A stretch of 64,000 nt of DNA. Origin: Cladopsammia gracilis. Its lineage: Eukaryota; Cnidaria; Anthozoa; Scleractinia; Dendrophylliidae. Below the pieces are notes generated by a model. It did not search any database, was not told where the DNA came from, and saw nothing but the letters and a program-made list of their open reading frames with translations. The stretch lies in NCBI GenBank assembly GCA_022457155.1, contig JAJGOT010000166.1:1264501-1328500 (forward strand), in the 5' to 3' direction. Shown here piece after piece: positions 10,340 to 58,692 of this stretch; the stretch's first letter is position 1, and each line of letters opens with the position of its first letter. A program made the position numbers and the translations under genes.

Positions 10340-13300
10340 ATGTCACAGAAATTTCTATATCTTTCTTTGCGATTTTTCGTACTTGCGGCCGTATTTCTCG
10401 CTGAAAGTGGAAGCAGTACGTTCAAAATTACAAGATACATGACAGGCGATGTGTTTCAGAACGCAAATTCGTCTAAAACTTGCATCGAAAGTGGGGCTGC
10501 GTGTCTTCTCAAGGTAGAGAATTCGCCATTTTGCGGCAAGAACTGCTGTAACTGTGTTTGCCCAAGTCACACGCCGACTTATCTTCTAAGAAACGGGAAT
10601 TGTAGCTCTGAAGATCACCTGATGTCGATTTTGAAAGCACAAAGTCAAATACAAGGTAAGTACGTTTTATTTCACTGGGAAACTAGCGAAATTTAAACTT
10701 TGAGTAAATAAATCGTAGAGAACGCCATTTTGGAATCGCGCGCCGACACGGCAACACGATAATGTGTTTCTTATGGCGACGAATCTTGGAAAAACCGGCT
10801 AGAAATGTTTATTACACCTTGCAATGTGTCATTCGTGTGTAGATGGTTGAAATGCTTTGAAAACTAAAAGCGTTGATAAGAAAACTTCGCGTCGTCAAAT
10901 CGTTATCTTCGACCTTGTTTTTTTCGGACCGTCTCGCGGATAGAGATCACGTTAGAAGTCAAAATGTTACCCTTCTTTCTTTCCCTAAAAGACACCTTTT
11001 ACTCGTGGAGGACAACCCTAGGACAAGAAAAACAATTTAAAACGCTTCGTAGGATGTTCAATTGGTTGATCTTCCTAAAACCTCTCGAAACAAAACAAAA
11101 ATAAAACACTGTAATATTTTCACTGTCGCTCAGACTTATAAGGTCACACGCTCTGCTATTTTGAGAAATATTAAACATATGCACGATGTCCCTTTTATTC
11201 ACTACTTCCTCGTTGTTTTTCAGATTTCTTTTAACTTTGAAGTCTTTACTGACTTTCCCCTTGTAGACTTAGTTCATTTATATTGTAGATAAATTTTTAC
11301 GAAATTCGTGATCATTATGGATTGATAATAAAGATTTGCGTCACGTCGCGTTCCAAGGTCATTAGATATTTTGAAACGACGGTAATATCTGTTTATTCAG
11401 CTAGATTTTGGTCATTTATTACCGGAACTAAGACAAGTAAAGCCGATAGAACGATTTTCCATCGTATTCAACGTACAGAAACTGAAGCAAATGTATCACA
11501 TTTGCAGCGGGGTTTTTATATCCACTTGAATTTTTCTCATCGCGGGTCTAGCCATCTTCGGAAGAATGGGAATTTTACACCCTCCCCTAATTTAAACACG
11601 CCGGATTTAAACCACGGAACTGACGAAGAAAATGGATACCTTACGATTATTTTTGTTATGACAAATGAAATTGTATTATGATGCGTAACGTCGGAAATTA
11701 GCTGAGAGCATGTGTTGGTAATCAACTGCGGATTTGCTGTAAACCAACAGGACAAGTTGGAAAACGACCGAATCGAGCGCTATCTCTTGTTGTTGTTCGT
11801 TTCTTCTGTGCGTCTTTAATGCGGTTAGAACGCGATCGATGTCCCGTGCGTGTGTGCCTGCGTTTGCCGGGCGCGAACGGTCACACCCTTCGTTCTTTTA
11901 CCCCTTGACCCGCAGCGCCCAAGGAGGCAAGGTGGTGCACGTTTGTAAATTATTGAAAAACAAATGGTGCCATGCAAAAGTACTGCCAAAGATGTTTCAC
12001 TTGAATGGTCACACCATATTATTTCATCTACAAACTAAAAAGTTAGAACTGCACGATATGTCTTCATAATTGACCCTCGGAATGAAAGTCTTAAAAATTG
12101 TTATGTTGATTTCGCGGACAATGATGTAATATATCACACGAGGAACGAGGAACAGTGTTTCATCAGATTTCCAAACACCGAGAAGTGGATTGGAAAAACG
12201 AGGCGCAGCCGAGTTTTTTTAAACCACTTCAAGGTGTTTGGAAATCTGATGAAACACTGTTTCGAGTGTTTGATATAGCTTCTCAAACTGATCGTTAAAT
12301 GCGGAGAAAACGAAGGAATAAAATCGCCAAAATCTATGCAAATTAAGAAACGATTTCAAAACCTCCTTCACGGTAGTGATTTCCTTTGTGTTCTCGTCAT
12401 GAATTATTAATGAGTTTGAGAACACTCGATCTAAACTGATGGTCATTAAAAATCTTGCAATTTTGTCCCATTTTTATCGAAAAACGAAACATTTGTACTG
12501 TGATATTCTTAGGTATGAGGTTATTTAATTGATCTGTGACAGCTACATTCTATACCGTCCTCTCCTCCTACGATATGTACACACACTCTCCCGCTCTCGC
12601 TTTCATTTTTCTTCCAAAAAAGGAAATTGGCCTATACAGAAGAAGGAGAAGCTCCAAAAAGAACTATGAACACCGTTGTGAAAGTGTAACGCCACCTTTT
12701 AGTGGAGTGAAATTTAACGTTGTGTGTCCTGGATTGAAACGATTTACAATGTGCCAATTTATTTCACACAAATTTTCAAGATAACGGAAGGAAGAGGATG
12801 AAAAATTATTAGTCAGTCCGAAAGCTTTTGGTTTTGACTGAGTTTTAGTTCATTGGCATTGTCATTTTTTCCCGATGCGCTAATGCTTGCTCGCTGTTTT
12901 TCAGTTTTGAACTATACAGGAAAGCTTGGGAACGGGGAACGTGCGGGGGTGGGGGGAGGGGCTAGGGCTGCCCAAACCCACCCTCCTTACTTATTATGCA
13001 TCGAAAACTAATTTACAGATGGAATGTTTCAATATTCCTTACCTAGATATTTCAACACTCCATGGTTTTTCCTAATCTCCCTTTTTTTATATGAAGTTGA
13101 GTTGCGCTGTCGTCTGTCTGCACGTATAATTGTATGTTTTAATTATATCCCGTTTAAAAATCTAAGCAGTTACCTTACTAACAAGGTAATAATCAATGAG
13201 CTCCTCGCGTAAATTCTGCAAAGAACATTTTCTGTGCAAATGCTTTTGCGTTGTTCATCGTTTATTTTTCAATATTTTCCAGCCCACTCACACTTTGTCG

Positions 13301-16300
13301 ATCAGTTCAGTTGTACTCCCCTCCCCTCCCCTCCCCTCCCCCCTCCCACTTAATAATAAGCTCCTGGGACCCTCGGGAAGGGAAGAGTTAGACTTTGTTT
13401 TACCAGTCATCGGTCTCAAACACGAAATCATGTGCCATAATATGCCAGGAAATAGAAGGGCACTGTCCCTGCTGATATGACAAGACAAGACAAGACATTT
13501 ATTATTATAATTATCGGCTAATTTATTATCAAAATACAGTGGAACCTCGATATAACGATATGCCAAGGGAGAAGTGAAATTATATCGGTATCGTTATATC
13601 GAGACTCCCGATATAACGATGTGGCCGTAAAATAGCCGAAAATATCGTTATATCGGGGTATTGAAATCCCGGCGATGTATACGTTTTGTCACAAGGAGTC
13701 AAAGATTCTAAAACTGAGAGAACTATTAAATTACAAGGAGGATAAAGAGGCATCGTAAACTGAAAGCTGTTGACTGAAACGTTATAGATTACTGTACTCG
13801 ATTACTGTAATGTTATTGTATTAAATCAGAAGCTCATAACAGATAAGCTTCTGATTAAATTCAATGTTTTTCTTAAATTGTAACCGTGCACTGATACTGT
13901 AATATCGTTATATCGGGGAGGATTTTACGCTCGGTGCGGTAAATTCTCATCGTTATATCGGGAATATCGTTATATCAAAGATCGTTATATCGGGGTTCTG
14001 TCCCATACATTTTACTGTAACTTTTGCCGGGACATAGTATATTCATCGTCATATCGGGGATATCGTTATATCGAGGATCGTTATATCGGGGTTCCACTGT
14101 AACGACTAAAAAACTCAGAATGGAAGCTTTGATTTCTTGACCGCCTGTCACGAAATCAAAATTGATGAACTGTAATCCACTTCCATCCTTGTAATCCTGG
14201 GGCCGGATTCACGAAGCCCTCCTAAGTTAAGACATATCCCAAGTATTGTTTCTTCACAATAGTCTATTGTTAAGAAACAATACTTAGGTTCCAGGCGTTC
14301 AGATAGTGGGAAAAGCGCGAATAGTTGGGGAAGGCGCGAAGGAAAGCGAGCGAAAAAAATGCGCTCTTCCTCTCCCCAATCTCCCCGCTTTTTTTTCGCT
14401 CCCTTTTCTTCGCGCCTTCCCCAACTATTCGCGCTTTCCCCACTATCTGAACGCCTGGAACAGGCTATCTTAACTTAGGAGGGCTTTCGTGAATCCGGCC
14501 CCTGCACTTTATCTCCAAACTACTGCTTTTGTTTTTCTCTATAGAATCTTTTTATCCAACTGAAGTTGTATATTTGGTGGCATTTGGCGATATAACGTGA
14601 AAATTATAAGTAAACACAATTTTGTAATTTCTGCGGAACAATGTCCCTTTAATAATTTACTTTATCTGATTTTTAGGTTGTGATCATCGCATGGTTGTAG
14701 CTGAGAAGCATCTTCAGTGTATAAACGAAGTTCTCACAACACTAGACACTAAAAATCCAGGAAACAAAAGCTTGTATCTTTGTCCTTGGAACGCTGAGCC
14801 GACGAACTCCCAAGCGATGATCCATTTCCAGCTTGTTAAAAATTTAAATAAGTGTGAAATTGTACCCGAAGAATCGCTTTTTCTCGTCAACGGGAGCTGG
14901 AAAAATCGTTCGCCTCACGGTTCCGTCTTCTCTGAACTAAATATTGAAATTAGACCAGATCCTGCTGTTTATAATGACAAGCTTTATCTCAAGGTGCGTA
15001 AAAGCTAAATATAAATATCTATATTAACCCTTTCACTCCCAAGAGTGCCAAAAATCACAAATTTCGTTTTGTAAAATATTGAAAAACAAATGGTACCATG
15101 CAAAAGTACTGCTGAAAAGGTTTCATTTGAATGGTCACACCATACGATTTCGTTAACAGACTCAAAAGTTAGAACTACCCTACATGTCTCCATAATTGAC
15201 TCTGGGAGAGAAATGGTAAATTAATGGACATCGTAACGATGACTAAGCAGTGTTTTACTTCTTTCTTGGTTCGTTAAATAGTGGAACGCTGACATTGGCA
15301 GGCAATACGATGGGCTCATTTTCTCCCTCAAATTGCGGTGTCATGGGAAGCAAGGAAAGAATTTAACTTCTTGTGTTCACTTCAAGAAATCTGGATCCTG
15401 TAAGTGCAGCGCTGTTTTTTTGTTTTTTGTTCTTTTTTTAGTAAGTCCAAGGAGTCCTTTAAATTGAACTGGAAAAAAACTCGATTTAAATACAAAAATT
15501 AGACAGTCTTCAGGTCTATATAGGTGCTCTATATCTGTCTTGTGTAGAATTTGATTGTATCCACAGCCGGAAAAGTTTCAACTACTTTGAACAGCATAAT
15601 AAACCAGGGCCGTAGCCAGAAAAAATAAGAACTGAGGCAATATCCATGGTTAAATTCCCTAAATTAGCTATTGTAGGGTCTTTATGATGACTACGTTTAA
15701 ACAAAACACTGGGATCATGACTGAGGCAAGTGCCTCGGTTTGCCTCATACTGGCTACGGCCCTGTAAACAGTACCATAGTAAAGTACTGCTCAATAGCTT
15801 TCAATTTAAAGGTCACACCTTAGTATTTCATCCACAGACTCAAAAGTTAGAACCACCTTGTACAGCATAATAAACAGCACCACAGGAAAGTACTGCTTAG
15901 TAGCTTTCATTTGAATGGTCACACTTTAGTATTTCATCCACAGACTCAAAAGTTAAAACCGCCTTGTACAGCTTAATAAACAGCAACACAGGAAAGTACT
16001 GTTCAATAGCATTCATTTGAATGGTCGCACTTTAGGATTTCATCCACAGACTCAAAAGTTAGAACCACCTTGTACAGCAAAATAAACAGTACCACAAGAA
16101 AGTACTGCTCAGTAGCTTTCATTTGAATGGTCACAATTTATCCACAGATCGGAGACCCCCAAACGTCGCAACCAGCTCGAACAGCATAATAAACAGTACC
16201 ACATGAAAGTATAACGTCCTCTTTGTGTTTCATTGTTTCCATAGTTACCGACATCATACCAACCTTAAAACCGGCATCATTGATAAGTACCCGCGACAGA

Positions 16301-19300
16301 ACTACTTCTGTCCAGCAAACAACAGCCGAAACAGTGAAAGCGACAACTTTGCCGTCAACTGAAAAACCTACTCCATCAACTGCACATGTGTCAAGTTCTA
16401 TAGTCCTTGATGACGTTCGCGCTACGTCATTGGCTGATCGGCCACAGACAAACATAGTACTTATTATTCTGGCTGCCCTGGCCGGGGCTCTGTTTGTTTT
16501 GCTGGCATGTTTTGCCGTGGTTTTCCTTCTCTGGAGACGAACAAGGTATATGTGAATCATTCGAACCGCCATGTACGACCACCTCTGATCTTCTAAGCGA
16601 CCACCCCTCCTAAGCGATCACCCCTCCTAAGCGACCACCCCTCCTAAGCGATCACCCTTCCTAAGCGATCACCCCTCCTAAGCGATCACCCCTCCTAAGC
16701 GACCACCTCTCCTAAGTGACCACCTCTCCCAAGCGACCACCTCCACTAAGCGACCACCCCTCCCAAGCGACCACCTCTCCGAAGCGACCACATCTCTTAC
16801 GCTACCACCTCTCCTAAGCGACAACCTCTCTTAAGCGACCTCCTCTCTTAAGCGACCACCTCTCGTAAACGACTACCTCTCCTAAGCGACCACCTCTCTT
16901 AAACGACCGGCCACCTCTCCAAAGCGACCACATCGCTTAAAGTGCCTATCACCCCTAAAAAGTTATTTTCAGAATCAACTCTATGTACATTGAATAGTTG
17001 AATGGTAAAATATTTCTTGTTTTGAACTTTGCGTTTGTGAGTTATAGAGATTTGAATTTACAAAATGCTAATTAGATGACGTCAACCCGGGAATTTGCCA
17101 TTATTTCTACGCCAATTTACAATGCGCAGTTTACAGCTTGTGGATAATTAATTTGCTAAATACTGAAAATAAACTGTGGATAGTCAATTGATTCGGAAAA
17201 AATATTACTCGGAGGTAAAAACAAATAGTTGTATAATAAATGACCAAATTATAGGTTTTCTAGAGAACGTGAACGCACGACGGTTAATTTTCCTTGCTGT
17301 ATTTGAACTTGAAAGCCGTCCCTATCAATTCAGTTCTTAAGCAATTCCAGTAACATTAGGCAAATTAAACAATTTGGAGTAATTTCAAAGTAGTTTAAAT
17401 GAGCGCAAATTCTTTACTCAATCACGTTTTCTTTGGCGTTGCCGTCATGGTTGCTAAAGCTCCCTAATAACCAGCGCCAAGTGCAGGAAAACGTGTAACC
17501 TTTCCAAGCGCGGGGAAACATGTAACGCTGCTAAACGTGGAAAACCTGTAACCATTGCAAGCGCAGGAAAACCTGTAACCGGTATACGTGAAAGGCCACC
17601 AAAGCTAAAACGTAAAGGGTCTTGGTTTTCAGCCTGAATTACTGAGACGCATCTATCTATCTATCTCAATGTCAAAAAAATCTGATAATTTTCATCCAAT
17701 TTTATTTTACAGAAGTTTTGAAGTGAAAAAAGGAGCTAACAACGGTAAGCTGAAGAAACATTTCAACAAACATGAAGTAGTTCAATTACATTCTCTTATA
17801 TTGTGCTATGTAAATTTATCACTTTTCTAGCATAAGTCAATCGGGTTTCTTTTATTTTCACCAGCAACTAACCCGGTATACGAGCGTGGTGCTTCAGATA
17901 CTCTCAAAATGTCAAAAATCTCAAACGGAAACGGACAGGCCGAGGAGGAATGGCCCGAGTATCAGCCATTGGTAGAGAACACGAAGCCACGTGAACGAGC
18001 AGACAGTTTGCCTGGTTACCGACTTCTCTCTATCGGGCAGAAACCGGCCAATGAGCAACCGACATCAGATGGATGCGTTCGCTCGTCCAATTATCTTAGT
18101 TTAATAAAGGACGACCCTGAGGAGAATAGAACGTATCAGACTTTGATAAAAGATGCTAATCCACAGGTAACGGTGTGGCACTGTTATCCCTTAAACTCCC
18201 AAGAGTGCCAAAGATCAAATTCAAGAAAAATCCCAAATTTCATTTTGTAAGATATTGAAAAACAAATTGTACCATGCAAAAGTACTACCGAAGAGGTTTC
18301 ATTTGAATCGTCAAACCATAGGATTTCATCCACAGACTCAAAAGTTAGAACTACATTACATGTCTCCATAATTAACTCTGGGAGTGAAAGGGTTATAGAT
18401 GTTTAGAAAGATCATTCCTTGATATCGGATTCAGGTTTTTTTTTTTACACAATTTGTCAGCATACCAAGGGCTTCAAGGGACTTACTGCGTTTTCGAATG
18501 AACAAGATATTTCACTCTGCGAATGATCGACCTCTTAACGTTTCAGTTGTTTCGTTTCACCATTTGTAAAACAGTTCTTTTTATCGCATTGTTATAGAAA
18601 TTGGAGATCGTCGATGAAGCGAACATCCCGGATTACGCGGAACTAGAAGAACGATCTGACAGCGAAGGTGAGTTACTGTTTACTTCTCTCACAAATTGGA
18701 TTTACCCTTTCGCTATATCACTGCTCAGAAGCTATCATTTGAATGGTCACACGTTAGGATTTCATCCACAGACTCAAAAATTAGAACCACCTTGTACAGC
18801 ATAATAAACAGTACCACAGGAAAGTACTGCTCAATACTGAGCTTTCATTTGAATAGTCACACTTTAGGATTTCATCCACAAACTCAAAAGTTAGAACCAC
18901 CTTTTCTCGTGGGTTAAGCAATAATAAGGTTTAAGGTATAATTCATTTACCGTCAGGTACACGAGGAGTGGTTGCCCAATCTCCCGAGCCAGAGGCTCAT
19001 GATAAAAGTGACTGATAATGATATATTTTATTCTTATTTTAGATTCATTTGAATCTTCGGATTCTAAAGATTATGAAGAACCCCCTGCTGAAGTATTTAT
19101 CACAAAAACAAAACCTTGTTCACCAGTAAAACGGCAGTTAAACGATTTATCTTCAGCTTTACACGACTATGACGAACCTGAAGGGATAATCGTGATATCG
19201 GATGATGAAAATGATCCGCACAAACAGACGATAAAAAAGGGTAATGACTTCCATGATTATGCAGATCCGGATGATACCGATGAAGACAATATAAACTGTC

Positions 19301-19356
19301 ACGTGACCCCCAAGGAAGATCTCTCGTGTTTCCATGACTACGATGATCCCGAATGA
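10340..19356 (+). CDS. Gene 1: tyrosine-tailed single-pass receptor-like protein, 8 exons
   Basis: Exons: 10340-10655, 14677-14993, 15282-15399, 16245-16545, 17713-17744, 17865-18166, 18598-18667 and 19043-19356. All have AG/GT borders and join in frame to 589 residues. I chose the ATG at 10340 because a typical signal peptide follows at once; ATG 10301 would add 13 residues. Residues 1-25 are the signal peptide. Residues 25-105 are a Cys-rich module with NCCNCVC then TPTYL. Residues 106-250 are a second extracellular domain (WNADIG... C ... SC). A Ser/Thr stalk precedes a transmembrane helix at about 321-346. The 243-residue tail has NPVY, five YxxL motifs (YQPL, YRLL, YLSL, YQTL, YAEL) and four YxxP motifs (YEEP, YDEP, YADP, YDDP), which suits SH2/PTB signalling. 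The ectodomain aligns with genes 3 and 4, and intron phases run 1-0-1-2-1-0-1. The ligand is unknown. Gene structure is predicted by eye only. Confidence 0.82.
11946..12085. repeat. Partial MITE/satellite-core copy in gene 1 intron 1
   Basis: It contains TTGAAAAACAAATGGTGCC, CAAAAGTACTGCC, TTTCACTTGAATGGTCACAC and AAAAGTTAGAAC. It ends in a decayed terminus (TAATTGACCCTCGGAATGAAAG). The rest of intron 1 (10656-14676) is non-coding apart from the elements listed. Confidence 0.55.
12140..12290. mobile_element. Foldback element in gene 1 intron 1
   Basis: CAGTGTTTCATCAGATTTCC at 12152-12171 is inverted as GGAAATCTGATGAAACACTG near 12239-12258. The inner arms AACACCGAGAAGTGG and CCACTTCAAGGTGTT continue the pairing. 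A relative lies at about 31670-31990. Confidence 0.55.
13308..13345. repeat. CT-rich (CCCCT)n tract
   Basis: Several CCCCTCCCCT repeats followed by C6. Low complexity inside gene 1 intron 1. Confidence 0.7.
13537..14099. mobile_element. Non-autonomous pogo/mariner-type MITE with TA target duplication
   Basis: The termini CAGTGGAACCTCGATATAAC and the inverted GTTATATCGGGGTTCCACTG are flanked by TA at 13535-13536 and 14100-14101. The interior holds many inverted ATATCGTTATATCGGG motifs and no transposase. CAGTGGAACCTC ends with TA duplications are typical of Tc1/mariner pogo-like elements. The element lies in gene 1 intron 1. Confidence 0.75.
14198..14503. mobile_element. MITE carrying a nested foldback element
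   Basis: The outer TIRs are GGGCCGGATTCACGAAGCCC and, inverted, GGGCTTTCGTGAATCCGGCCC, with CTG on both sides (a possible 3-bp duplication). It interrupts the dispersed repeat also seen at 2095-2345 (AATCCTG/CACTTTATC). Nested inside at about 14290-14465 is a copy of the CCAGGCGTTCAGATAGTGGG foldback family also found at 40674 and 48439. Confidence 0.7.
15023..15224. mobile_element. MITE of the satellite-core family in gene 1 intron 2
   Basis: The termini TTAACCCTTTCACTCCCAAG and ACTCTGGGAGAGAAATGGTAA are inverted repeats around one satellite-like core. It sits between exons 2 and 3. Confidence 0.75.
15575..16212 (-). repeat. Reverse-orientation satellite run (about 5 units) in gene 1 intron 3
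   Basis: Reverse complement of the 106-bp unit: CAGCATAATAAACAGTACCA, AAAGTACTGCTCAGTAGC and GACTCAAAAGTTAGAACCACC, repeated. It is broken at 15605 by a MITE and ends only about 35 bp before the exon 4 acceptor. Confidence 0.85.
15605..15764. mobile_element. 160-bp MITE with 5-bp duplication TAAAC
   Basis: Perfect 15-bp TIRs, CAGGGCCGTAGCCAG and CTGGCTACGGCCCTG. The host repeat ATAATAAACAGTACC is split with TAAAC on both sides. Same end style as 21791-21957 and 25248-25547. Confidence 0.8.
16580..16942. repeat. 17-bp minisatellite in gene 1 intron 4
   Basis: About 21 imperfect copies of CTAAGCGACCACCTCTC, starting about 35 bp after the TM exon donor. Copies diverge toward the 3' end. The rest of intron 4 (16943-17712) has short GCAGGAAAACCTGTAACC repeats at about 17480-17580 and nothing else recognised. 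Confidence 0.85.
17865..18166 (+). other. Gene 1 exon 6: ITAM-spaced YxxL motifs
   Basis: This in-frame part of the gene 1 tail carries YQPL, YRLL, YLSL and YQTL. The last pair is YLSL, then 10 residues, then YQTL. That fits the ITAM rule YxxL/I-x(6-12)-YxxL/I, with acidic residues around it. The exon ends in phase 0. Confidence 0.75.
18184..18398. mobile_element. MITE of the satellite-core family in gene 1 intron 6
   Basis: The termini TTATCCCTTAAACTCCCAAG and ACTCTGGGAGTGAAAGGGTT bound one satellite-like core. It starts 18 bp after the exon 6 donor. Confidence 0.8.
18714..18908 (-). repeat. Two satellite units in gene 1 intron 7
   Basis: Reverse-orientation copies (GGATTTCATCCACAGACTC, TTAGAACCACCTTGTACAGC). 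Reading through the exon 7 donor would enter this repeat. Confidence 0.8.
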
Positions 19357-20358: not shown

Positions 20359-20371
20359 AACGGTATTTTGA

Positions 20372-23299: not shown

Positions 23300-26200
23300 A
23301 TGGAATTGAAACACATCCAACAAAGCTACCTGCTTATTTTAGTCTTAATCCATGGAGTAGCTGTTAGCTGCCAGAATGCGACCGAGCCTACGAGTAACTC
23401 TGGTGAGTGAAATGTACAAAGAAATTTACATCAGTGGAAGTTTGATTGGAATGCACACTACCTAGTTCGGCGCTCATTTCCCTGTGTCATTTATTCCTTC
23501 TTTTCTGAATGTGTGTGCAATTGCGCGTGAACTCCAAACTAGTACTTAAAATTCCGAAAGCAAAAACTAGGTGTTTCAAATATAATAACTTGGCCTTAAA
23601 CTGCCACGAATTTCAGCTGACATTTTCAATCACAGCGCTAAAACATTCATTTCTAAAGGTTTATTTTACTGAATACGATTTTAGCTTTGGTGTCAGGTCG
23701 TAAAGAGCCAATTTAACTTTTCATTTCAAGCCGTCCTTTTGAATATGAATATTGGTAGTACCATAGTATTGGCTGACTGAATTACTTTGCAAAGAGGCAT
23801 GCGTATGTAAATGACGTGAGCAATATTAGTCTAAAGTACATTCTTTTAAATTCAGAGTCGACTATTGGTGACTTTTGAACTGAGAAAAATAAACTGAAAT
23901 TGCTTAAAAGCGTACTTCATTTTATGTTAAAGAATTGTCATGCAGAAATATTTGACCTAAATCATTATCTTTCATCCTGATTTGTTTTGTAGTACAGTAT
24001 AACTAAAAACAATAAACTGCGTTTACTTTAAATCTCACGAAAACTAAAACAGTGATATAGTTTTTCATTTTGGATTATTGCAAACAAAAGTGAACAATAT
24101 TTATACTAAGTGCATTAATTTTCTATATTTCTTTGCATGTAACGTTAACAAAAAAATAGGCAAATTGTATGTAAACTGACTCAACGTAAGTTCAGTTTTG
24201 ATGGAAAAGTGCTGAATGAAACTTGTGATTGACGAAATTATCCGTTTGTTACTTTTATGCATGGACGCTAATATTTTTGGTGCGATTTGTTCAATACTCA
24301 AAATAGGGGTTTCTTTTAAGGAGCGCTAAGGGACTAAATAATTTAAAGCTTATTGCTCTATCAGGGCATTAGAGCATATCGACACGTCTTCGCCCCCACG
24401 GTCCATTTTCGTATTTACAGGAAATGGAAAATAAAACGGTTCTGACAAAATATCGTATTTTTAACAGTTATTGGTTTAAATTTAGAAATGGAGTTTCACG
24501 ATGGATAAATATGTAATAATAAATGCGTGTGCATTAACACGTGATCAGTGCATGGTAGTGAAGTCGCAATTAAATATATGAGAGAATATTACGTTATTTT
24601 TTATAGTACAATACTTTATATAAGTATTGTTAATCTGCATATATTCCTCAGAAATAAACCTACTGTCGAAAATTCAATATTATATACCATTATATGCTCA
24701 ATGCTAAACATCATTTTGTATATTTTATATATTTAGTTCTGTTCGCCACCCTGAAAACAGCCTACGGACTCTCTCCTCCGCAGAGGCTCCCATCAGTAAA
24801 GAACAGTAAAAGAGAAAAAAAAAAAAAGAGAAAATGGGAGCGCGGGGAACGATGGGAAGAGCGAAAGAGCGGGAGCGAGGTCTCCCTTCTTCTCCCTTCC
24901 CAGAGTTCCCCGCGCGCTTTACTTTTTACCTCTACCCAGCCTCCGCGCGTTTTTTGCCAAGCGTGGAGCGTGACTGGAAGGCCTCTGCGGAGTAGAGAGG
25001 CCTACGGAAAAAAACAAAAGCCTTTGTTAAGTGTAAACTTTTAAATGGAATTTTTGTGACTAAAATACGACTTGTCAGTACTACTGGCAAAAACAGGTTT
25101 CGCTATTGATCCTTTTTTATCTACTGTGGCATGTTTTTGTTAGTTTTTACTTGGCGAATTAAGCTGAATTAGAAAGCCTGAATTAAAGTGACGTAACTTT
25201 CACAAAAATCGTACAGACAGGTATCTCTGTATGTATACGTACGTATACAGTGGCGTAGCCAGCCTATAGGCCCTAAGGCCCAGGCCTACAAATTTTTCAG
25301 CCCACTTGTGTTACATTTTTAAGAATTGGAAATGAAAAATTCAAATCCATTCTCTTTTATTAAATATTATGATTTAGTTGCTGTCAAGATACATATAAAA
25401 TCACCAGAAAGTGAAGAATAAAGCATTTTCAAGGGCCAATATCGAAAGATTTTCCGGCGGGGGCATGCCCCCGGACCACCCTAGAAGCGGCCCTTGCGGG
25501 CCGGATGGCCAGGCCTACAACTCTTCTAAAAGCTGGCAACGCCCCTGGTATAACACGTAAAAATGACACTCCTATAAAAATTTACAACTGATAAAAACAT
25601 TAATTTAAACAGGTCAAAGTTTGGCTACCTAGGTAACGTGCAAACATTGTTAAATTATTGTTTTGCTTGTTCGAAAGGAGACAGAAAACGCTTTCAATAT
25701 TAGCTCTTTGTCATCATTTTAGGTGGTGAACTGTCGGTTCAACCATCGCTTGAAACAACATCAACATCATCGTCAACGTCAACAACAACAAAAACAACGG
25801 AAGAAAACACATCAACACCACCACCACCACCAACAACAACAACGTCACATCCAGCGGTGACGTTATCTCCAGGTATAGAGTTGTTGACGTCATCAGTACC
25901 AATTAAAGTTGTCGATATCGTGTCTGAATATGTGAAACAAGAGATGACACCTGAAGTCGAGTCCCCTGAAATGGCCACAACAACACCGATGTTGACGTCA
26001 CATCCAGTTTTTTCGTCATCTCGTTTTATGACGTCATCAAAACGAAAGGCGCAGATGTCTGTTACTGAAGATTTGGAGCAAGCGATAACACCTCAGGAGT
26101 CTATTCCTTTGAGATCAACAACGAAATCAATTATGATGTCAGATTCGGTTGTTACGTTTTCTTCTGTCAAAGAGTTGATGACGTCATCGAAATCGTTACC

Positions 26201-29200
26201 TCAATTCGAGGCTACTCCCTTGAGCTCAACAGAAAAGCCGATCGTGATGTCAAGTTCCGTTGTGACGTCATCGCCAATTATGGAACCGTTGAAATCATCG
26301 ACACCAGTGGCGATCGTTAATGTCGTCACCGAACAAGGTATGACGTCATCTTCGTCAGTGAATGACATGAGCTCCTCGGAGGCTTTGAACATCGAGCCAT
26401 CTACCATCCTCGAGAAACAAGAAACCTCTTCCTCAGAAATGCTGGAGCAAATTATGTCTTCTTCTTTGTCCTCTTTGTCAAAACAAAGCTTGTCTTCTGT
26501 GGGGGAAATGACATCATCTCAAGCATCGAAAATTGTTACGTCATTACAAATTTTGAGCAAAACTAACTCCCAAACCGAGGAAGAGATCACGTCATCTAAT
26601 GCTTTGGAAGCCGCCATGTTACCAACAATGGCAATGTTATCCTCAGATAAGGAAGAGATGACGCCATCACAAGCTTTAGAAATCTTGAGGTCATCCCAAA
26701 ATGAGAAAGCAGTTGCCACGTCAACGTATGAAGACATGAGATCGCCTACAACAACCTTAGCATCTGTTCAAATGACATCGTCCTCTCAAATTATGGAAGT
26801 TTTGACGTCCCAAACTGTTGATGTTTTAATGTCTGCCGGAACAACAGACGACATGACGACACCACAACCAACAAAAACTTTGATTTCATTTTCAATGTCT
26901 TCAACATCTTCGTCGCATATCATACATGCTGTGAAATCATCACAAGTGAAAACGGAAATAGATTATTCTTCACTTCACACGTCGACTGTTTCAACGCCCT
27001 TCCGGGCTACGTCTCTTCAACCTCTAAAAACAACAGTAGCTTTTACTGAGATTTCATCGTCTTATGAAGAAGTGAAGGCCTTTAAAACAACTCTAACTTT
27101 CTCTTCATCTCAACTTGCAGATGTGAAAGCGACCACAACAAAGAAAAACCATGGATCTTTACCCACACAACTCCCAACAGACACCTTGATGACGTCATCA
27201 CACAACAGTGCCCCAGTTGCCATAACAACGTCAAGCAAAAATGTCAGTGTTGAGCCTCCTGCAACAGCTTCAGGAACAGGACATCACCCTACCCACCCCA
27301 CTCATCATACTGAGCATGAAGATACACATACCACTCACACTCACCCCGACGAGCCACACACGCATGCCACGAACAAGACAAATGATGAACACGTGATATA
27401 CCACACCATGGACTATCCACATGAGCCCGATGTAGACGCCGCCACTGGAGGTAAAAATAAGAACGATAACAATTGGATGGTGTCAATTTTCGTCGTGATC
27501 GGGCTTCTTAGCGGCATGGTTTTATTTGTGGTGGTAATGGTAATAAAAGACAAGGCCAGAACCGGGTAAGTTGGTTAAGTATTTAAGTGTTAAGTATTTG
27601 TTAAAACAGAAGTAACATGAGAAACTTAAGTTGGCAAACTCCACAAAGTTCAAGGGCAATCTCGTGTTCTCGCGTGACAAACGTACACACACCTCGACCT
27701 CGTTCTCAGGTTCTTTCCTATCGATGGATGAGGAGAAACAACAACAACAACAATTTTATTTCATTATTAATATACATGTAACAATATTTTCAACATTGAC
27801 AACCCGAAGTTAGCATAGCTAATCGAGGCGAGTTGTCAAAAATAAGAACAAAAATTAACATTAGCTCCTAGTAATATGACTGAAAGGACTCTTGCTTATA
27901 CTTAAGCTGCAGCAAACATTTCCACGTCAAATGCGAGTTTGCCAACTAAAAAAAGTTGGCGTTAAACTGGGCAAAAATAAAGAACGTAGGTAAGATTTGT
28001 CGCCAACAGTTTGCCAGCGTGTTTGCCAACTAACTTTAGTTTGTCGTGTGAAGGCACTTAAAAGTAGTCTTCTAATCACATAGTATTCAATCACGACAAA
28101 CGAAAATCAATTAACGTAGTCAACCATTCAGAACTCCAAGCAAAAAAGGCGTACAACCGATGTAATTTGTATTATGAAAGATGCCGTAATAGGCGGAGGA
28201 AAACATGCGAGCGAAACCAAGCGTTTCATGGTAACTTTTCCATGTTGTAATCAATTTCCATTTTCTTCAATGTTGATCAACATTTTTTCAATTTGTGAAT
28301 TATGTTTTCTTCAATACTAATCTTTTATTAATGATCTACAATCTTGGCCAATGCCTTAAACATAAACTCCCCTTCCCTCTCCCCTGAGCAATGTTGAGAG
28401 TAAAAATAAGACATGCATCGTACGAATAGTGCAATAGTCCACTTTCGAATTCGCTATGGTCGCTGAATGAAAGCATTGAAGACGCATTTTTACAGGGTTA
28501 GCCTCAATCTTAGCCACTCACTGCGACTGTTGCCTTGTCGTGGCTGAGTGGCTTGTGCGTCCCAATGACTCCAAGAGCTATGCCGGCAGGGGTGTTTACA
28601 CCCCTGGTAGGGCCTCCCAAGCCGGAAAGGTCAAGGAGTAGGGTCCATACTAAAGTCATTCCCATGGCCCTCCAGACGTGGGGGTTAGGCTTGAGGCTAA
28701 CAACCTCATCCTGTAAAAAGAACTTGTTACGGAAACAGCAAAAAAAAAGCCTCAATCTGAAGTGATAAATCCACAAATTCAGGCGAGAAGATGACCTGTT
28801 TAGAGCTCTGTTTATTGTTTAATTTTCAAATTTCACGCACTTTCTGCCGGTATTTGTGAATATTTTACATCAGGTCGAGTCTAACCCTGTATCGATGTGT
28901 CATTGGTGTTTGAATTCAGCGGTAATTTTAAATACGAAAATGGCTTATTCCAATTTAAGGACTTTAACATTGTATAGGGGGTGAGGGTGGGGAGGACGAA
29001 CTTTCTAAGTTACATTTTAGTTACATTAATTATCGGCGACTTTTAATTAAATTATCCATCAAAAACGTCTGAAAAAGGTGAAGTGTCCCTATACCAATTG
29101 ACCAGGACGGTAGGTACAGTTCTAAAATAATATAAGGCTGTTTTTTTTTATTGCAGCGGGGCAAATTTAAAGGCCAAAAAACGTCCAGGTATTTCTAATA

Positions 29201-41900: not shown

Positions 41901-44191
41901 TCCACGCTCATATTACCAGGCATTGTGACCTATTGCGCTTACTTTTAACTAAAACAGCCAAATATCAGGCCAGCTTTAGGTTCAATGGTGCGTGCGCCTT
42001 TAATGCTTTACTCTTTGACATAAGATCGGCGAATGAACTCAAGGAATCCTCTTCCAACAACAACAACAACAACAACAATATTTTATTCAACTCACACGAT
42101 CTTTACAGAAAAGGAAAAAAGAAAATAAATTTAAAAATAAAACTAGATTACAGATATAGAAAAGAAAAACCAAAGGAAAAAAAACATTCTCTTCCTGAAG
42201 TAAACAAGTAAAGTAAACAAGTAAACGAGTAAACATTCTCTTCCTGAAGTAAACATGGTAACAAGGACTACAATAACGGAAATATAATGAGAAATAAAAA
42301 TGTCACTTTGAACTATGAAACAGAAACGAAACGTCGAGGATCTAGTGAGCGCGGAAAATTAAGTTTGCAAGCATCTTGGTATGTTTTCACCTGCCCTCCG
42401 CAAAAAACAGCGGGGTAAAATATCCACATTCTCGAGCTCTGTTGAAAACATGAAGCCGCTGGTGAAACTAAAACATTTTCTTACAATATATATTCAGCTA
42501 CAACCATATTCAGCCGGGGTCGTTAGCTAAAGGTCAGCCTCGTTGCGTCCATGTCGCGAGTACCCACCATCTTGAAATGAAAATCCCAAAGGATTCTGGG
42601 AGTGAGGGTTTGTTGGCCTGCTCATGCGCGTGGCCATCCTCGTCCCCAGGGCCTTCTCCGCTTTGTTCAAATTCAAAATGGCGGGTGGGGCGGAGAAGAC
42701 CCTGGACAAGGTTGCAAAAATACTTCAAAAATCCCGGCGTGTTTTGTCGCGTAAAATATGATAAAAATGTCTTCGTTTTGTTTGAACAATGGTTTCAGAT
42801 TACCAGAAAACAAACACGGTTGGGTTGCCTGTGGTTTGAGATTACCAGAAAACAAACACGGCTGGGTTTCCTGTGGTTTCAGATACCAGAAAAAAAAACG
42901 GCTGTCAATCAATGAAAACAACCTCCGAAAACGCCATTTCATCGTGTGTCACGTGACATAATACTCCACGATTCTTGGTCAAGTCCAAATCATACCGTCC
43001 AGAAGGACGTTGGACACCTTATTGAGACTTATACAACGGAGTAGCTGGTTAGCTTTCAGTTGAGGTTGGGGGTAGCAGTTTATATAGTTAAATTTAGGAC
43101 TAAGCAACCCGAGAAGCTAGGTGGTACAGCGGTACGGTAGGCTATGTTAGCCTAAGTCTAGCTGAGGTCACAGGTTCAATCCTGAGTGGGGATTTTAGAT
43201 TTTCTTTTTTACACTTACAAATTCATTGAAAGTAAATGCTAAGTGTCGACATTACGTTATATAAGTCTCAATAAGGTGTCCGACGTCCTTCTGGACGGTA
43301 TGATTTAGGCACAACCACGATTCTTGTAGTATTTTGGAAGCCATGTCCAGAGATTTCCGCGCCCGCTCCGCCATTTTGAAAGCCGAGAGGTCCCTGGGCC
43401 TGGGGACAAGGTTGGCGCGTGACCTGGAAGCAAAGTCTGGACCGTGTTTAACCGCGGTCAAACGAGAGAAATTTGCGAAAGTTAAGCAAAGTACTTAAAA
43501 GTTAAGGTTGTCATTGACACTGTTCAAAGTTTAATATATTGCCAATACACTGTCAATTTACCAAACGTTTAGTTTACTAAAAAAGCTCTAAGCGTTTAAA
43601 AATTGTGAACTGCAGAATTGTCGGCGCCATTTGCCAACGTAATTTTGATCAGGTGCAAAGAGTTTTGGTCAGTTTTCAACGGAAAAAAAGTTCGTCATTT
43701 TGAGAAAAATTTAAAGATAGTGACGTCATCTAATATTTTTCATACATCCTTGCCCATATTTCCATTTAATATTAAATAAAATCCCACTAAATAAAACGAA
43801 AAACGCCTCGGACGTTTGACCGCGATGGAGGTCCGGACTGTGTGAATATGAAGAGTGAGACTGAGGAGAGATAAATAGGGAATATTTGCGGCATAAAATA
43901 TGATTTAATATTGTAATTTCTCTTTGTAATTCAATTCAGACATCAAAAGCTCCTGTATACGAGTGTGGGTACATGGCAACAACTGGAGCGCATGACAAGG
44001 TGGAGAAAACCGCTGACAAGGAGAACCCGTATTATTTCAAAGTTGAACAGCCTGACAAGATGGAAGAAACCGCTGACAAAGAGAACCCATATTATTTCAA
44101 AGTTGAACAGCCTGACAAGATAGAGGAAACCGCTGAAAAGGCCGAAAACCCATACTATTACCAAGTTGAACAGATAGCAGACAGTAAATAA
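35926..44191 (+). CDS. Gene 3: tyrosine-tailed single-pass receptor-like protein, 8 exons
   Basis: Exons 35926-36283, 37121-37431, 38110-38269, 39569-40106, 40620-40657, 41146-41420, 41546-41671 and 43940-44191 join in frame to 685 residues. The signal peptide is residues 1-22 or so (LLFRLAILVTLAVAES). The Cys-rich module contains TNPNRTAV, SSCCESCQC and YPIYL. The second domain starts CGPRLEL, contains a poly-Asp run and ends WNKAAT ... C ... FPACFIF, with a Lys/Arg-rich insert. A Thr/Pro/Lys stalk (KPKTTTQPK repeats, then TEP repeats) precedes a transmembrane helix at about 426-450. The 235-residue tail has YQPL, YQGL, YQDL, YHPL, YTNP and four NPYY motifs, three in 20-residue tandem units in the last exon. 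Phases 1-0-1-2-1-0-0 match gene 1 through exon 6. Closest paralogue is gene 4. Binding partner unknown. Confidence 0.85.
37446..37600. mobile_element. Partial CCAAT/E2F MITE in gene 3 intron 2
   Basis: It matches 21056-21220: GCGGTTTTCAATGGAGTGTC, AAAGTAATTACTCTG, CCAATCACAGCTCGAAGCAA and GCGCGGGAAAACGCGTGCGA. The right half is replaced by a block (AGCTCTATTGTTTTCAGGGC) that resembles 150-250 and 33430-33530 inverted. Confidence 0.7.
37745..37993 (+). repeat. Satellite units (about 2) in gene 3 intron 2
   Basis: AAGGTGGTTCTAACTTTTGA and CCATTCAAATGAAAGCTACT at the 106-bp spacing. They end about 115 bp before exon 3. Confidence 0.85.
38278..38759. mobile_element. GGGTACTCCC-ended inverted-repeat element
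   Basis: The ends are CCCGGGG...GGTACTCCC and GGGAGTACCCCCC...CCCCGGGG. The next layer is GTGTGCCGCC and GGGCGGCACATGCC. Inside is a second inversion, TTTCTTGGTGTTGCGGA and TCCGCAACACCAAGAAA. It begins 8 bp after the exon 3 donor. Confidence 0.75.
38770..38960 (-). repeat. Dispersed repeat, reverse copy
   Basis: Reverse-strand version of 2095-2345 (CACCAAATATACAACTA, AAGATAAAGTGCAGGATTGC, GAAGTGGATTA). The remainder of intron 3 to 39568 shows nothing else. Confidence 0.6.
40159..40452. mobile_element. MITE in gene 3 intron 4
   Basis: The ends TAAAGGCCCGTTTACACATG and GTAAACGGGCCTTTA are inverted. The interior is full of CGATTT/AAATCG palindromes (GCGATTTTTGTCGCG, GCGACAAATCGCG). Confidence 0.75.
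40673..40820. mobile_element. MULE-like foldback inserted next to a splice donor
   Basis: The ends CCTATTCCAGGCGTTCAGATAG and CTGAACGACTGGAACAGGCT are inverted. The duplication AGTATTAACC flanks both sides. The left copy is part of the exon 5 donor region (T then GTAAGTATTAACC). 9-10 bp duplications also flank the relatives at 47550 and 48439, typical of Mutator-like elements. Confidence 0.8.
41834..42049 (+). pseudogene. LINE reverse-transcriptase C-terminal fragment
   Basis: The translation has HEIHAHITRH, LLTKTAKYQASFRFNGA and DIRSANELKE. These match the usual end of CR1/jockey-type LINE ORF2 proteins (N-T-R-H ... S-F-x-x-x-G-A-x-x-W-N-S-L-P ... R). A (CAA)n and TATTTTATTCAA tail follows at 42055-42090. 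5'-truncated and dead, in gene 3 intron 7. Confidence 0.6.
42795..42905 (+). repeat. Short tandem repeat, 2.7 copies
   Basis: The unit AGATTACCAGAAAACAAACA, with CGGTTGGGTTGCCTGTGGTT, repeats at about 41-bp spacing in gene 3 intron 7. Confidence 0.7.
42977..43316 (+). mobile_element. TIR element with tRNA-like core and 9-bp duplication
   Basis: TIRs start GGTCAAGTCCAAATCATACC and end GGTATGATTTAGGCACAACC, and stay paired for about 60 bp. The direct duplication ACGATTCTT lies at 42968-42976 and 43317-43325. The core at about 43110-43200 is tRNA-like: TGGTACAGCGGTA (A-box-like), GGTTCAATCC (B box), then a T-rich terminator. Relatives: 46036-46306, 57640-57925 and 59516-59843. Confidence 0.8.
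43940..44191 (+). other. Gene 3 last exon: tandem NPYY units
   Basis: Three 20-residue units of the form DK-x-E-x-TADKENPYYFKVEQP repeat in frame before the stop. The preceding exon (41546-41671) carries one such unit (TADNEENPYYHKL), so the last exon looks like an internal duplication. NPxY binds PTB domains and also drives endocytosis. Confidence 0.8.
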
Positions 44192-46566: not shown

Positions 46567-47549
46567 TTATAGGAATAGGGTATGGACATTGTTGGAAGAT
46601 TCCCACACGACAGAATCGGTGACAGCATCCCTTGACAAACATATCACTTGACATGGCGCGGACCTATTTTGATATAAGCACTTTAACCGTAACATGCTAA
46701 ATAAGGGATGGTCCATTCAATTTTTCCAGGTGAAGGTGTTGGGCAAATACAAAAAAAAAATCCCTGCACAGCAAAAGTAGAGAAAAAAATTCGTGCATAG
46801 CGAGCCAAAAAAAGAAAAGTATGGAACAATCTGGAAAAAATAAGTTGCACAGCCTCGAGACGAAAAAAAATAATGCTCAGAATAATTGCCCACCACACCA
46901 CCCCCCCCCCCCCCCCCCATCCATCCCTAAGGAATTGAAATCAATAGGAAACCAACATGACAAGAAGACGCGTATCAAATCACGTGAATATCAAAAGCGC
47001 CCGTGTTTATTTTCATTCTAAACTCAAGCTTGTTATGCAAATTGCAATCACACTAAGAAGACGGCGATTGCATATAGAATTTAACATGAAGTTAATATTA
47101 ATAATTCTAACGTTGGCGATCCTGCTAAGCGGAGCTGAAGATGTGACCTCCTTAAGTGTTAACGTGACCAGAATTCGGAAGAACGACAAATTTACAAATC
47201 CAAACAGAACAGCGGTGGTTAGCTGCACGACAGGTCACGCATCGACTAATCTCGACACATGCAAGACGTTTAATTCAAAAGATACTCGCGCACGGTGTTC
47301 CAGCGGCTGCTGTAAAACTTGTTCGTGTAAGTCAGATTACCCAACATATCTGACGCATTTGGGAATGTGTGAATGTGTGAAAGATGTGTGAGTTTATCGG
47401 AGCTCAACTCGGATGTTTTTGGGCAAGGATCAAACGGTAGGTCAAGCGTTAACCTGTTCCTTGGTGTAGGGGGGGGGAGGGGTAGGAAGAGAGGGAATGG
47501 GAGAGTGGTGGGAGAAGAGAAGGAAACGGAAGCATTGATACTTAGCCTG

Positions 47550-48629: not shown

Positions 48630-49382
48630 AGGGATTTGATGCAATATTTACACATTTAAAATTTATCTTCTAGGTTGTGCGCGCCTTGACGAGAACCGTA
48701 ATGACGTTTGTGACGATGACCCCTGGACACCACCCGTCGTTAACTTCTGGTCATCAAAATTTCCCCTCGTTCTATTTTGCCGCCACAATGACGATGGCGA
48801 TGATATCGCGTCATGTTCTGTAACTGCAGTGCGAAACTCGGGGTACGATCAATGGAAAAATATCAGTAACTTCAGGGAAAGCGTTTGGATCATGAAGAAA
48901 AGAGATGAATTCTACTTTCAGGTACATTATTATAATTTGTTATGTCCACTGAGCTGCGCTTGCACACGTAGACCCTATTTTAGAGTTATCAATAAAAAAA
49001 TTGATACCTTTTTAAGGCCCAAATTAAAACCGACAAATGAGACCCTATATAGGGAAAGACGATAACTTTGAATTCAGTTGTGTGTACAGGTCGTAATCGC
49101 TTCGTTCATACTTAAACGGGTATTTTAGTTTAAACAGACCATTTCATTTTTGTTAAGGCGGGGGTACACAATTACAATTACAATTTACATGTGAATGTTA
49201 ATGAAATATAAAGAGGTTTAAAGAAGGGAGAGAAGGAAGGAAATGATTTTTGGAACACCAACAGACAGTTGATACCCACGCAAGAGCAGCCCAGGTTGCT
49301 AGTGAACTAACTTGGTGCCCGTCCATAAATTATTAACTACAAATTCTAATTTTAAAACTTCACTAAATCTTCAATATTTCTT

Positions 49383-50580: not shown

Positions 50581-51039
50581 CTGGACTTTTAAATATTTGT
50601 TCTTTGACGTAATATTAAAAAAAAAAAACATTGTAAAATTTTCATAAGGGCCGTGCGTGACAGCCGCGTGGGATAGGAATATCATGCTACCCACCAGTCG
50701 ACCAAGTATCGTTGCGAAATAGAGTTGGCGAAATTAATCTGACCAGCGCGTATCGTGGTTCCCAAAGCAACAGGGAAACGAGTCAGCCCGAATACGGGCC
50801 CCCGGGGAATACGGAAAGATTGTTTAATTTATTCTTTTGATTTTGCAGTGGAACAAGACTGCGATGTCGCACATCACTGGCAAAGTTATCGTGATCAACA
50901 TTCTATGCGAACAGAAGAAAGGAAAGTCTGACTACCCGGCATGCTTTGTGTTCATGTCTGAAGGCACCGATATAGGTGAACTAAATCTATACTTTTTATT
51001 ACTTCAGGCGGGACTCAATCTAAATTTGAATGAAATTGT

Positions 51040-51560: not shown

Positions 51561-52529
51561 CGGGAAAATGACATTTGTAGGTGGAGTCCCGTCTTAATTA
51601 TGATAATTTGCATATCAAGAGAAGAAGAATTATAAGGAAGAGAGTTTACACAGAGAATTTTGCTTGACATAAATTTGAATTTAGAGGCTTTCATGTCTGT
51701 AATAACCCCGGGTAATTACCCTTCAGTCTAGCGACATGTTTTCGTGAGAAGTCGGGGCGAAAATATAAGAGAAATAAGAGACGTGTAATCTGAGAGAGAA
51801 GAGTTCACGAGAAAAGCCTCTGTATTCTATAAAAATACGAGGGAATCATTTCTTATTTGGTTTACAGAGCAGTAGTATATCGATAATTCGAATCACAAGA
51901 AACGTAAACGAAACATGACCTGTTGTTCTTAGCCGATAATGGACTGATTACTGAACCGGAAATATGATCATTGCTGTTAAACCAAAACCAACTAAGACTT
52001 GCAAGCAGTAGGCCTCTGCTTTCAAAGGCAAAGGCCGGACTGCCTTGTTTCATAGGTATATAGCACTGGACAGCTTTCATTTCAGCTGTTCATCACGGCG
52101 TCTGTTTTTGTCATAATTTCCTTTCTTTGTCATCACTGTCAGTTACACCACCACCACTACAATCAACAACAACAAGAACAACTACTACTACCAGTACAAC
52201 TACAGCAACAGCGATTCATTTAACAACAAAGAGACTAAAGACCTCATCTAACCGTGAGATATCTAAAACAACAAAGCCGAAAGGTCGAGAAACCACGTCA
52301 TTGACTGAGAATCCAGAAAAACCCAATGACATAACAAACACACCGAAGAAACCGAGTAGTCCTGGTAAGGGCAAGGTGTCGAACAAGTCACGTGATGGAG
52401 GTGGTACAACTGTCATCGTGGTTGCCATAATCTGTACACTTCTTATAGTTGTTCTGCTCTCTGTGGTGACAATATGCTTGTTGAAAAAGAGAAAAGAAGG
52501 TAAGTGTACCCTTTTATTCAAGGATCCCG

Positions 52530-56456: not shown

Positions 56457-57477
56457 TAGGGGTGACAGCTTCGGAGATTATCGCCATTGATTGAAATTGC
56501 CGATACCGGCATTTCAGATATCACTTCTGCGAATGAAATGGAGAATTGTCAACTCATTGAGTCGTGCCTTGGCTTCGAACCAAGGCGACGACTATATAAA
56601 TTGGGCAGAAAAACAGTTGGGATTTTCAAGTGGTTTATAGCCTGAGGGGAAGTGTTAGTGACGTCATATCAGTTGATATAGCAACTTCAAGCTCATGGAT
56701 GATTGGATTTATTTACAACATAAGAAAAAGGAAAATGACGAAACGAAACATATCAAGTAAAAGGAACTTACATTATTGCCGGGTTTGGCGAGAGTTCCAT
56801 TCGATAACGATTTCGTTTTCTTTCTTTTCGAGCAACAGATAAATGGAAGTATTAAGTTGACCATCCATGCACGAGTGATTGCGAAAGACTGATATAAGGT
56901 TTCAGATGACGTACAGTGTAATAACATTCGTGACAGATCACCTAATGTGACCGGAAAAGCGACTGTACATGTAAAACAAATCATAACAATATATTGAATT
57001 AATTCTCGTACCTTCGGGGCACTTACAAGACCGTTAAAGCTTCTTAAAGCACGACTTCACTACTCGAAGAGTTGTTCTTGTTCAACATCAGGAGGCAGCG
57101 AATAAATTCGTTGGCGAGCGTATAATTGCTAGTGTGTGGCTGGTTTCATTCCTGCGTGGCCAGTCTACAGCTAGAATTATTTTTCCTTGATAACTTTATT
57201 TTTGTACTAGTGATATTTATAATAATTTGATAGTGAACTGAGACAAGAATACTTGATCTGGGGTTTTTAACATTAGAAAGAAAACTAAGAAATATATCAT
57301 TTTCTGTCTAACATTGACCAACTTTCTTTTTTCACCAGCAAAGACGCGGAAGCTACCAACCATACCAACATTCAGTTTAAGTAAATGTTATCTCTTATGT
57401 CTGGCCAGCTGATCTGAAATATTGTAAAAATCATAATATACGCTGTTTTCAGCTTTACTTTAAAGTAATACTTCTGG

Positions 57478-57617: not shown

Positions 57618-57639
57618 GCATTAGATCCCATCCACCAAC

Positions 57640-57925: not shown

Positions 57926-58692
57926 GTATCTAATGCTAATCCTTTTAAACAGCCGGGGCCTGTTGTTAAACTTACAATTGTACGCATTGGGAACCTAGTT
58001 TAATTGTTTCTCATAGTATGCGAGGTGCAAAGCACCGAACAGAACACACCAGACGATCACGTGTATCAAGAACAAAATAGCTGTTACGTGCCCCTGAGGC
58101 ATGTTGGGAAAGCAACAGGAGGTGGTCAGTGGGAAGCACCCGCTTACCAGGGCCTCACAAAGGGGTTGACCGAGGGAGCGTGGGGACAAGGCGCGGTGTA
58201 TACTAGCCCGTCAATGTATCAGGCGCTTACAAAGAACGAAACTCGATCTGATGAGAGTTTGCCAGGTTATCACCCGCTTGTAAAACATCCCCGATCTACG
58301 GTATGTCAGCTATGTAAACATTAATTGATCAAAATAAAAACCTGTGACATCTCACATCTATTAATTCTAATGTCATTTTATGTCACATTACCCAGAAGAC
58401 ACCGGAGGCTGCTGAATATGATTGTGGATACCAGGTATTGATTGGAGATCATGACAAGATGGAGAAAACCGCTGACAACGAGGAAAACCCATATTATCAC
58501 AAACTTGAACAGGAAGAAAAGGTGACAAAAACTTTGGGAACTGAGAACCCGAACAGACGATAAAGTAAACAACAGAAAATAATTAAATCAGGAAGTTACT
58601 GGAATAATAACAGTGAAAACAACAACTACGGAACAATCACAGTTTATTACATTCTTTCAACAGAGGCGGCTGAGCGTTTTGAACCGTGTGTG

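Follow-up and report, generated by a model that had tools for sequence, protein, structure and literature searches.

A same-strand cluster of tyrosine-tailed, single-pass membrane proteins with a Shavenoid-B N-terminal module in the stony coral Cladopsammia gracilis

The window analyzed here, 64,000 nucleotides of the forward strand of Cladopsammia gracilis contig JAJGOT010000166.1 (referred to as C310; window positions are used below), carries a cluster of genes on its plus strand (Table 1). Gene 1 (10340-19356) has eight exons, is open throughout, and encodes a protein of 589 amino acids (aa); gene 3 (35926-44191) yields an intact eight-exon model of 685 aa. All 14 introns of these two genes are bounded by GT and AG, introns 1 to 6 agree in phase between them (1, 0, 1, 2, 1, and 0), and both genes encode the same order of parts: a signal-peptide-like start, a cysteine module (module 1), a second domain spread over two exons (module 2, or D2), a stalk, a transmembrane (TM) helix, an exon of 32 or 38 nucleotides, and a tyrosine-rich tail. 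The way in which these exons are joined is supported by five full-length relatives (P0001, P0003, P0008, P0009, and P0010), in which the same modules run uninterrupted, without introns, on contigs of which the longest measure 1,847 to 2,984 nucleotides; since the coding span of gene 1 is 9,017 bp, contigs this short cannot hold the introns. From their label ("lgn"), we take these contigs to be assembled sequencing reads, probably transcripts. The exons, motifs, and order that a first-pass annotation had proposed for genes 1 and 3 are thus real, and its description of membrane proteins with a single pass and a tyrosine-bearing tail, encoded in a cluster on one strand, is supported.

Table 1. 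Coordinates of the genes, exons, and related features of the cluster (window positions unless a contig is named)
Feature	Position	Strand	Remarks
Gene 1 exon 1	10340..10655	+	Signal peptide and module 1 (Sha_B_N, PF23328); 33.4 bits, cut-off 24.4
Gene 1 exon 2	14677..14993	+	D2 first part; D2 profile E = 1.3e-49 (profile includes gene 1 itself); P0003 identity 88.7%
Gene 1 exon 3	15282..15399	+	D2 second part (WN...C...SC..F); supported by splice sites; P0003 identity 94.9%
Gene 1 exon 4	16245..16545	+	Stalk and TM helix; hydrophobic peak, P0003 match
Gene 1 exon 5	17713..17744	+	32-nucleotide post-TM exon with GT-AG introns; entered in phase 2 and left in phase 1, same in gene 3
Gene 1 exon 6	17865..18166	+	NPVY, YQPL, YRLL, ITAM YLSL-x10-YQTL
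Gene 1 exon 7	18598..18667	+	Tail segment with YAEL
Gene 1 exon 8	19043..19356	+	YEEP, YDEP, YADP, YDDP sites, then stop
Gene 2	23300..31004	+	Ser/Thr-rich, mucin-like single-pass TM protein within the cluster; lacks the Cys modules
Gene 3 exon 1	35926..36283	+	Signal peptide and Sha_B_N; 29.9 bits; P0011 84.7%
Gene 3 exon 2	37121..37431	+	D2 part 1 with acidic insert; P0039 72.7%
Gene 3 exon 3	38110..38269	+	D2 part 2; D2 profile E = 3.3e-14 (profile includes gene 3)
Gene 3 exon 4	39569..40106	+	Thr/Pro stalk and TM
Gene 3 exon 5	40620..40657	+	38-nucleotide post-TM exon
Gene 3 exon 6	41146..41420	+	Tail with YQPL, YQGL, YTNP, YQDL, YHPL; P0012 95%
Gene 3 exon 7	41546..41671	+	Tail
Gene 3 exon 8	43940..44191	+	Three NPYY-type 60-bp repeats, then stop
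Shared tail block	41153..41680	+	77% identity to 58027-58530 across 534 bp that include an intron; probably young or converted
Gene 4 exon 1	47086..47436	+	Signal peptide and Sha_B_N, frame break near 3' end; 16.6 bits, below cut-off 24.4
Gene 4 exon 2	48674..48921	+	D2 part 1; D2 profile only E = 0.027 (profile without gene 4)
Gene 4 exon 3	50849..50975	+	D2 part 2; D2 profile E = 5.1e-11 (profile without gene 4)
Gene 4 exon 4	52143..52499	+	Stalk and TM; phase 1 on leaving, not 2
Gene 4 tiny post-TM exon, remnant	57339..57376	+	Next bases TT, not GT
Gene 4 exon 6	58017..58300	+	Tail; P0012 63.7%
Gene 4 exon 7	58396..58563	+	Tail, then stop
Further relative (L016:2287 to L017)	C310 ~1360787-1373760	same as cluster	~32 kb downstream of the window

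Gene 4 (47086-58563) had been counted as a working third member of the family. It is a paralogue, yet it appears to be broken in three places. Relative to gene 3, exon 1 contains a net insertion of 17 nucleotides near its 3' end, after which the reading frame meets a stop; P0023 is open across this break, and its alignment to gene 4 takes two frames. Exon 4 is entered and left in phase 1, where its counterparts in genes 1 and 3 are left in phase 2, and the remnant of the tiny post-TM exon lacks a GT donor. Given these three faults and the GC-rich minisatellite of 2 kb (54186-56186; about 83 copies of a 24-bp unit) between its TM and tail exons, gene 4 is probably a recent pseudogene, with an assembly error as a possible alternative source of the faults. 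In the gene 4 tail, YTSP stands where gene 3-type tails have YxNP.

Gene 2 is not a paralogue, since the Cys modules are absent from it; its joined exons 1 and 2 gave no match to the module 1 family (Sha_B_N) at E ≤ 0.1. Beyond the three genes that had been listed, the cluster evidently extends further, since another relative lies downstream of the window and extra tail-exon fragments occur at 59861-59898 (gene 3/4 type, 97% identity over 38 bp), L009:9286-9417, and L010:1131-1232. In the downstream relative, a module 1 exon that narrowly misses the cut-off (22.1 bits) is accompanied by weak module 2-like exons (E values of 0.09 and 0.07) and a TM exon; the tail contains NPTYERG and YQPIVENTRP as well as five YxxL/I motifs. 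This tail shares NPxYERG and YQP(L/I)VENT(K/R)P with that of gene 1, to which it aligns with a score of 91 (shuffle maximum, 83 in 500); with the gene 3 tail, no alignment above shuffles was obtained (z = 0.7).

Several other elements were observed in the window. A 106-bp tandem repeat family was found at 2988-5513 (23.8 copies), 15765-16140, 37767-37991, and 47772-48327, and repeats of this family occur, in both orientations, in introns of genes 1, 3, and 4. Two copies of a FYVE-finger-like exon are present (~62838-62947 and ~63857-63967), the first being one base shorter than the second, which scored 26.8 bits, just below the cut-off of 27.8. A GIY-YIG-like open frame (61808-62083; 25.4 bits against a cut-off of 22.6) may come from a Penelope-type retroelement.

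The first-pass annotation had recognized no named family in the ectodomain. By its profile matches, however, module 1 is the N-terminal domain of Shavenoid isoform B (Sha_B_N; Pfam PF23328). Genes 1 and 3 scored above the curated cut-off for this 62-position domain model in a Pfam scan (Table 1); gene 4, P0001 (20.8 bits), P0002 (14.3 bits, a partial match), and the downstream relative scored below it, and all 15 sequences of the module 1 alignment matched PF23328 at E ≤ 0.1. Since none of 10 cysteine-preserving shuffles of module 1 matched, the assignment rests on the sequence and not on Cys spacing alone. The same annotation is already attached to coral proteins in databases, both as a precomputed entry (PF23328.2) and in the UniRef name of P0005. 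A PF23328 profile search of the coral's own genome (878 Mb) returned five places and matched exon 1 of gene 1 there. The module 1 of gene 1 has a single match in that genome, namely, itself. Divergent Sha_B_N exons with signal-peptide-like starts lie on minus strands at C1005:6828-7016 (L001), C310:45071-45229 (L003), and C310:18479-18670 (L004), two of them thus about 1.2 Mb away on the window's own contig. Comparisons with PDB sequences gave one match for the module 1 profile (E = 6.7) and eight lines for the gene 3 ectodomain as a single sequence (best E = 0.086, PF6, followed by SPARC), all of which were taken as chance. A passage of a 2022 paper describes sha as specific to insects and arthropods (PMC9375228). 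By title, none of the papers listed for "shavenoid" was on cnidarians, and none of those listed in related literature searches was on this coral receptor family; no paper in the collection searched named PF23328.

For module 2, no Pfam family was found at E ≤ 1 in any of 10 members, and a profile search returned no PDB sequence at E ≤ 10. Among eight type 1 proteins (gene 1, P0003, and P0005 to P0010), all six D2 cysteines of gene 1 are invariant, as are all eight cysteines of its module 1. At loci elsewhere in the genome that were picked for their adjacent Sha_B_N exons, module 2-like exons with marginal scores were found 3' of divergent Sha_B_N exons (L012, E = 0.005; L018, E = 0.02), a third candidate (L015, E = 0.45) scoring within the range of chance matches from that search. 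Because such weak module 2-like exons follow divergent Sha_B_N exons, the pairing of the two modules may be general in coral Sha_B_N genes.

A word-limited homologue search yielded 56 homologous proteins, 6 of them with a species name (P0002, P0004, P0005, P0006, P0007, and P0022). All six are from stony corals, the species being Acropora muricata, Oculina patagonica, Desmophyllum pertusum, and Porites harrisoni; Acropora, Oculina, Desmophyllum, and Porites are scleractinian genera. Orthologues of gene 1 thus occur in further stony corals. In a module 1 tree of 49 of the 59 rows (10 proteins lacking the full module were dropped), type 1 (20 rows) and type 3/4 (29 rows) split at 100/100; gene 3 groups with P0011 (99/89), and gene 4 groups with a set that includes P0004 from Oculina (88/83). 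Because the tree places them apart, and in agreement with an ectodomain dS of 1.46, genes 3 and 4 seem to be old duplicates. Their tails, at a dS of 0.43, are closer than their ectodomains at least partly because the tail is younger or converted: this low dS, together with the 77% identity of a tail block that includes an intron, suggests conversion. A tail tree placed gene 4 without resolution. Stronger constraint found no support as the cause of the likeness, since dS is lower in the tail too and the intron is similar. In four cases, the longest contigs of type 1 and type 3/4 relatives are equal in size (447645, 864863, 1290244, and 23458249), a coincidence which implies, without proving, that both types lie on common contigs and that the clustering has been retained.

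The claim that the ectodomains diverge far more than the architecture and intron phases, which the first-pass annotation had linked to the variable outside and signaling inside of immune or self-recognition receptors, holds between paralogues but not among gene 1 orthologues. Mean identity among type 1 proteins is 73% in D1, 62% in D2, 45% in the stalk, and 69% in the tail; the gene 1 ectodomain is about as conserved as the tail, with no marked excess of ectodomain divergence. Between genes 3 and 4, dN/dS was 0.30 (0.16 to 0.50) outside and 0.37 (0.23 to 0.63) inside, with overlapping intervals, and values per exon ran from 0.31 to 0.59 (the highest in D2 part 1) where dS was finite; these are pairwise counts, with ectodomain dS near saturation and exon 3 not computable by itself. 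The pair thus gives no sign of an arms race, and the search for positive selection on its ectodomain, a weak one at such saturation, found none. Gene 1 looks like the constant component of the cluster; the diversified one would be the branch of gene 3, which is represented here by two or more copies.

The tails carry the clearest regularities. All 10 tyrosines of the gene 1 tail are invariant in the eight type 1 proteins, whereas of the 229 remaining tail residues 94 are (p = 1.9e-4 by Fisher's test, without correction for phylogeny), and this invariance makes a signaling role for the tail likely. An ITAM, YxSL-x10-YQTL, is present in 8/8 type 1 tails, always with a spacer of 10 (shuffle p = 0.026 to 0.047 each for the pattern YxxL/I-x6-12-YxxL/I in the tail); among five gene 3-type tails (gene 3, P0001, P0002, P0004, and P0022), only that of P0022 has ITAM spacing. 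The initial impression of tails loaded with YxxL, NPxY, and YxxP stands in part. In each of the 13 proteins examined, including all five of the gene 3 type, YxxL/I was more frequent than in shuffles of the tail (p ≤ 0.011), and YxxP was so in all eight type 1 tails (p ≤ 0.007; four or five sites each) but not in gene 3-type tails (p = 0.09 to 0.59). NPxY is enriched in gene 3 (four sites, p = 0.001), which is joined only by P0002 (one site) among gene 3-type tails; it occurs as a single site in 8/8 type 1 tails, not a strong signal by count (p = 0.03 to 0.08). Beyond these motifs, the tails of genes 1 and 3 are weakly related at best (z = 4.0 for a global alignment and 2.1 for a local one that used a portion of the gene 3 tail). 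Three of the four YxxP sites of gene 1 (YEEP, YDEP, and YDDP) agree with the pY-D/E-D/E portion of the SH2 consensus of Nck, given in a passage of PMC3308951 as pY-D/E-D/E-V, with P rather than V as the +3 residue.

We put at roughly two in three the probability that the cluster encodes type I single-pass receptors of stony corals that signal through phosphotyrosine, with actin remodeling or uptake as the probable output. The sequence itself gives the receptor topology and a probable signaling tail; the kinase, the adaptors, and the actin or uptake output would follow from motif knowledge and from the analogues CED-1 and CEACAM3, a ligand is presumed, and an immune role is conceivable. The predicted outer part consists of the Shavenoid-B N-terminal Cys module, the second Cys-rich domain without known match, and a glycosylation-type stalk. 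Engagement of a ligand or clustering on the outside would lead to tail phosphorylation, putatively by Src-type kinases. In gene 1, a kinase with tandem SH2 domains, such as Syk or Shark, would then bind the paired YxSL-x10-YQTL; NPxY would recruit an adaptor with a PTB domain, and the YDEP, YEEP, and YDDP sites would recruit Nck- or Crk-type SH2 adaptors. The bound kinase and adaptors would promote actin remodeling, adhesion, or uptake. Gene 3-type members, as a separate branch, carry YxxL, YxNP (presumably a Grb2-type site), and, in part, NPxY; the absence of a correctly spaced ITAM from four of five gene 3-type tails counts against this reading.

Alternatively, these proteins might be Shavenoid-like actin organizers that shape microvilli or sensory hairs, with a tail that recruits actin adaptors constitutively, and not recognition receptors. 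We consider this rather unlikely: module 1 does match the Shavenoid-B domain and the YDEP-type sites do resemble Nck sites, but the likeness to Drosophila Shavenoid (sha/kojak) is known for the 62-position N-terminal Cys module, the coral D2, stalk, TM helix, and tail being outside the comparison. A polymorphic array of immune or allorecognition receptors, with variable ectodomains recognizing self or microbes, would account for the same-strand cluster, the old subfamilies with at least two gene 3-type copies, and the ITAM in type 1; ITAM/ITIM motifs are mentioned for candidate allorecognition genes of Hydractinia in part of PMC12065747, and a section of PMC10236652 describes coral-amplified, largely tandem families, the vast majority of them transmembrane receptors or involved in adhesion and signal transduction. 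The conserved ectodomain of gene 1, the overlapping dN/dS intervals of genes 3 and 4, and the absence of Ig, lectin, TIR, or LRR domains in Pfam scans nevertheless make this explanation unlikely. Endocytic or scavenger receptors without kinase signaling are less likely still. YxxL and NPxY can act as sorting signals for AP2/PTB clathrin adaptors, a point that also counts against the phosphotyrosine reading, and YxxL/I is enriched in all gene 3-type tails and NPxY in gene 3; sorting signals, however, do not account for the constant ITAM spacer of 10 residues or for the series of YxxP sites preserved in type 1. A bolder form of the phosphotyrosine-receptor reading, which we regard as improbable, holds that these are ancient, clustered non-Ig coral receptors in which Shavenoid-B and the new Cys domain would read a symbiont, microbe, or neighbor ligand and a single-chain ITAM/PTB/Nck/Crk tail would drive engulfment, the fly hair gene having branched off from this extracellular module.

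For phosphotyrosine-signaling receptors of this kind, partial precedents exist. The Alr proteins of Hydractinia have a clustered, single-pass layout and Ig-like ectodomains. They resemble the coral proteins in being candidate receptors for recognition in a cnidarian and in having tails of the ITAM/ITIM type (PMC12065747, in part) but differ in that no Ig-like domain was found in the coral proteins and in that Hydractinia belongs to a different class of Cnidaria. Pfam scans of gene 1, gene 3, P0001, and P0002 gave no Ig family at E up to 10, although a very divergent Ig fold could escape such scans. CED-1, Draper, and MEGF10 have ectodomains of EMI and EGF repeats, neither of which was found in the coral proteins by Pfam scans, and the Draper tail has an ITAM. 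The likeness lies in the combination of NPxY with ITAM/YxxL in the tail, the NPXY of CED-1 being bound by the PTB domain of CED-6 according to a passage of PMC6242819. In CEACAM3, a phagocytic receptor with an Ig ectodomain, for which the coral proteins gave no match, an ITAM-like sequence recruits Nck, linking such a receptor to Nck-WAVE uptake (PMC3308951, in part). TIR/LRR, lectin, SRCR, and NACHT domains of known cnidarian pattern receptors were likewise not found in Pfam scans of the coral proteins.

To our knowledge, few receptors are known for symbiont uptake, immunity, or colony recognition in corals. With the present analysis, a domain of a protein called arthropod-specific in a passage of PMC9375228 is tied to a coral membrane-protein family with strikingly conserved tail tyrosines. 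Should the tail prove to signal, this family would give corals a set of ITAM-type receptors without Ig domains that may bear on symbiont uptake, immunity, or colony recognition.
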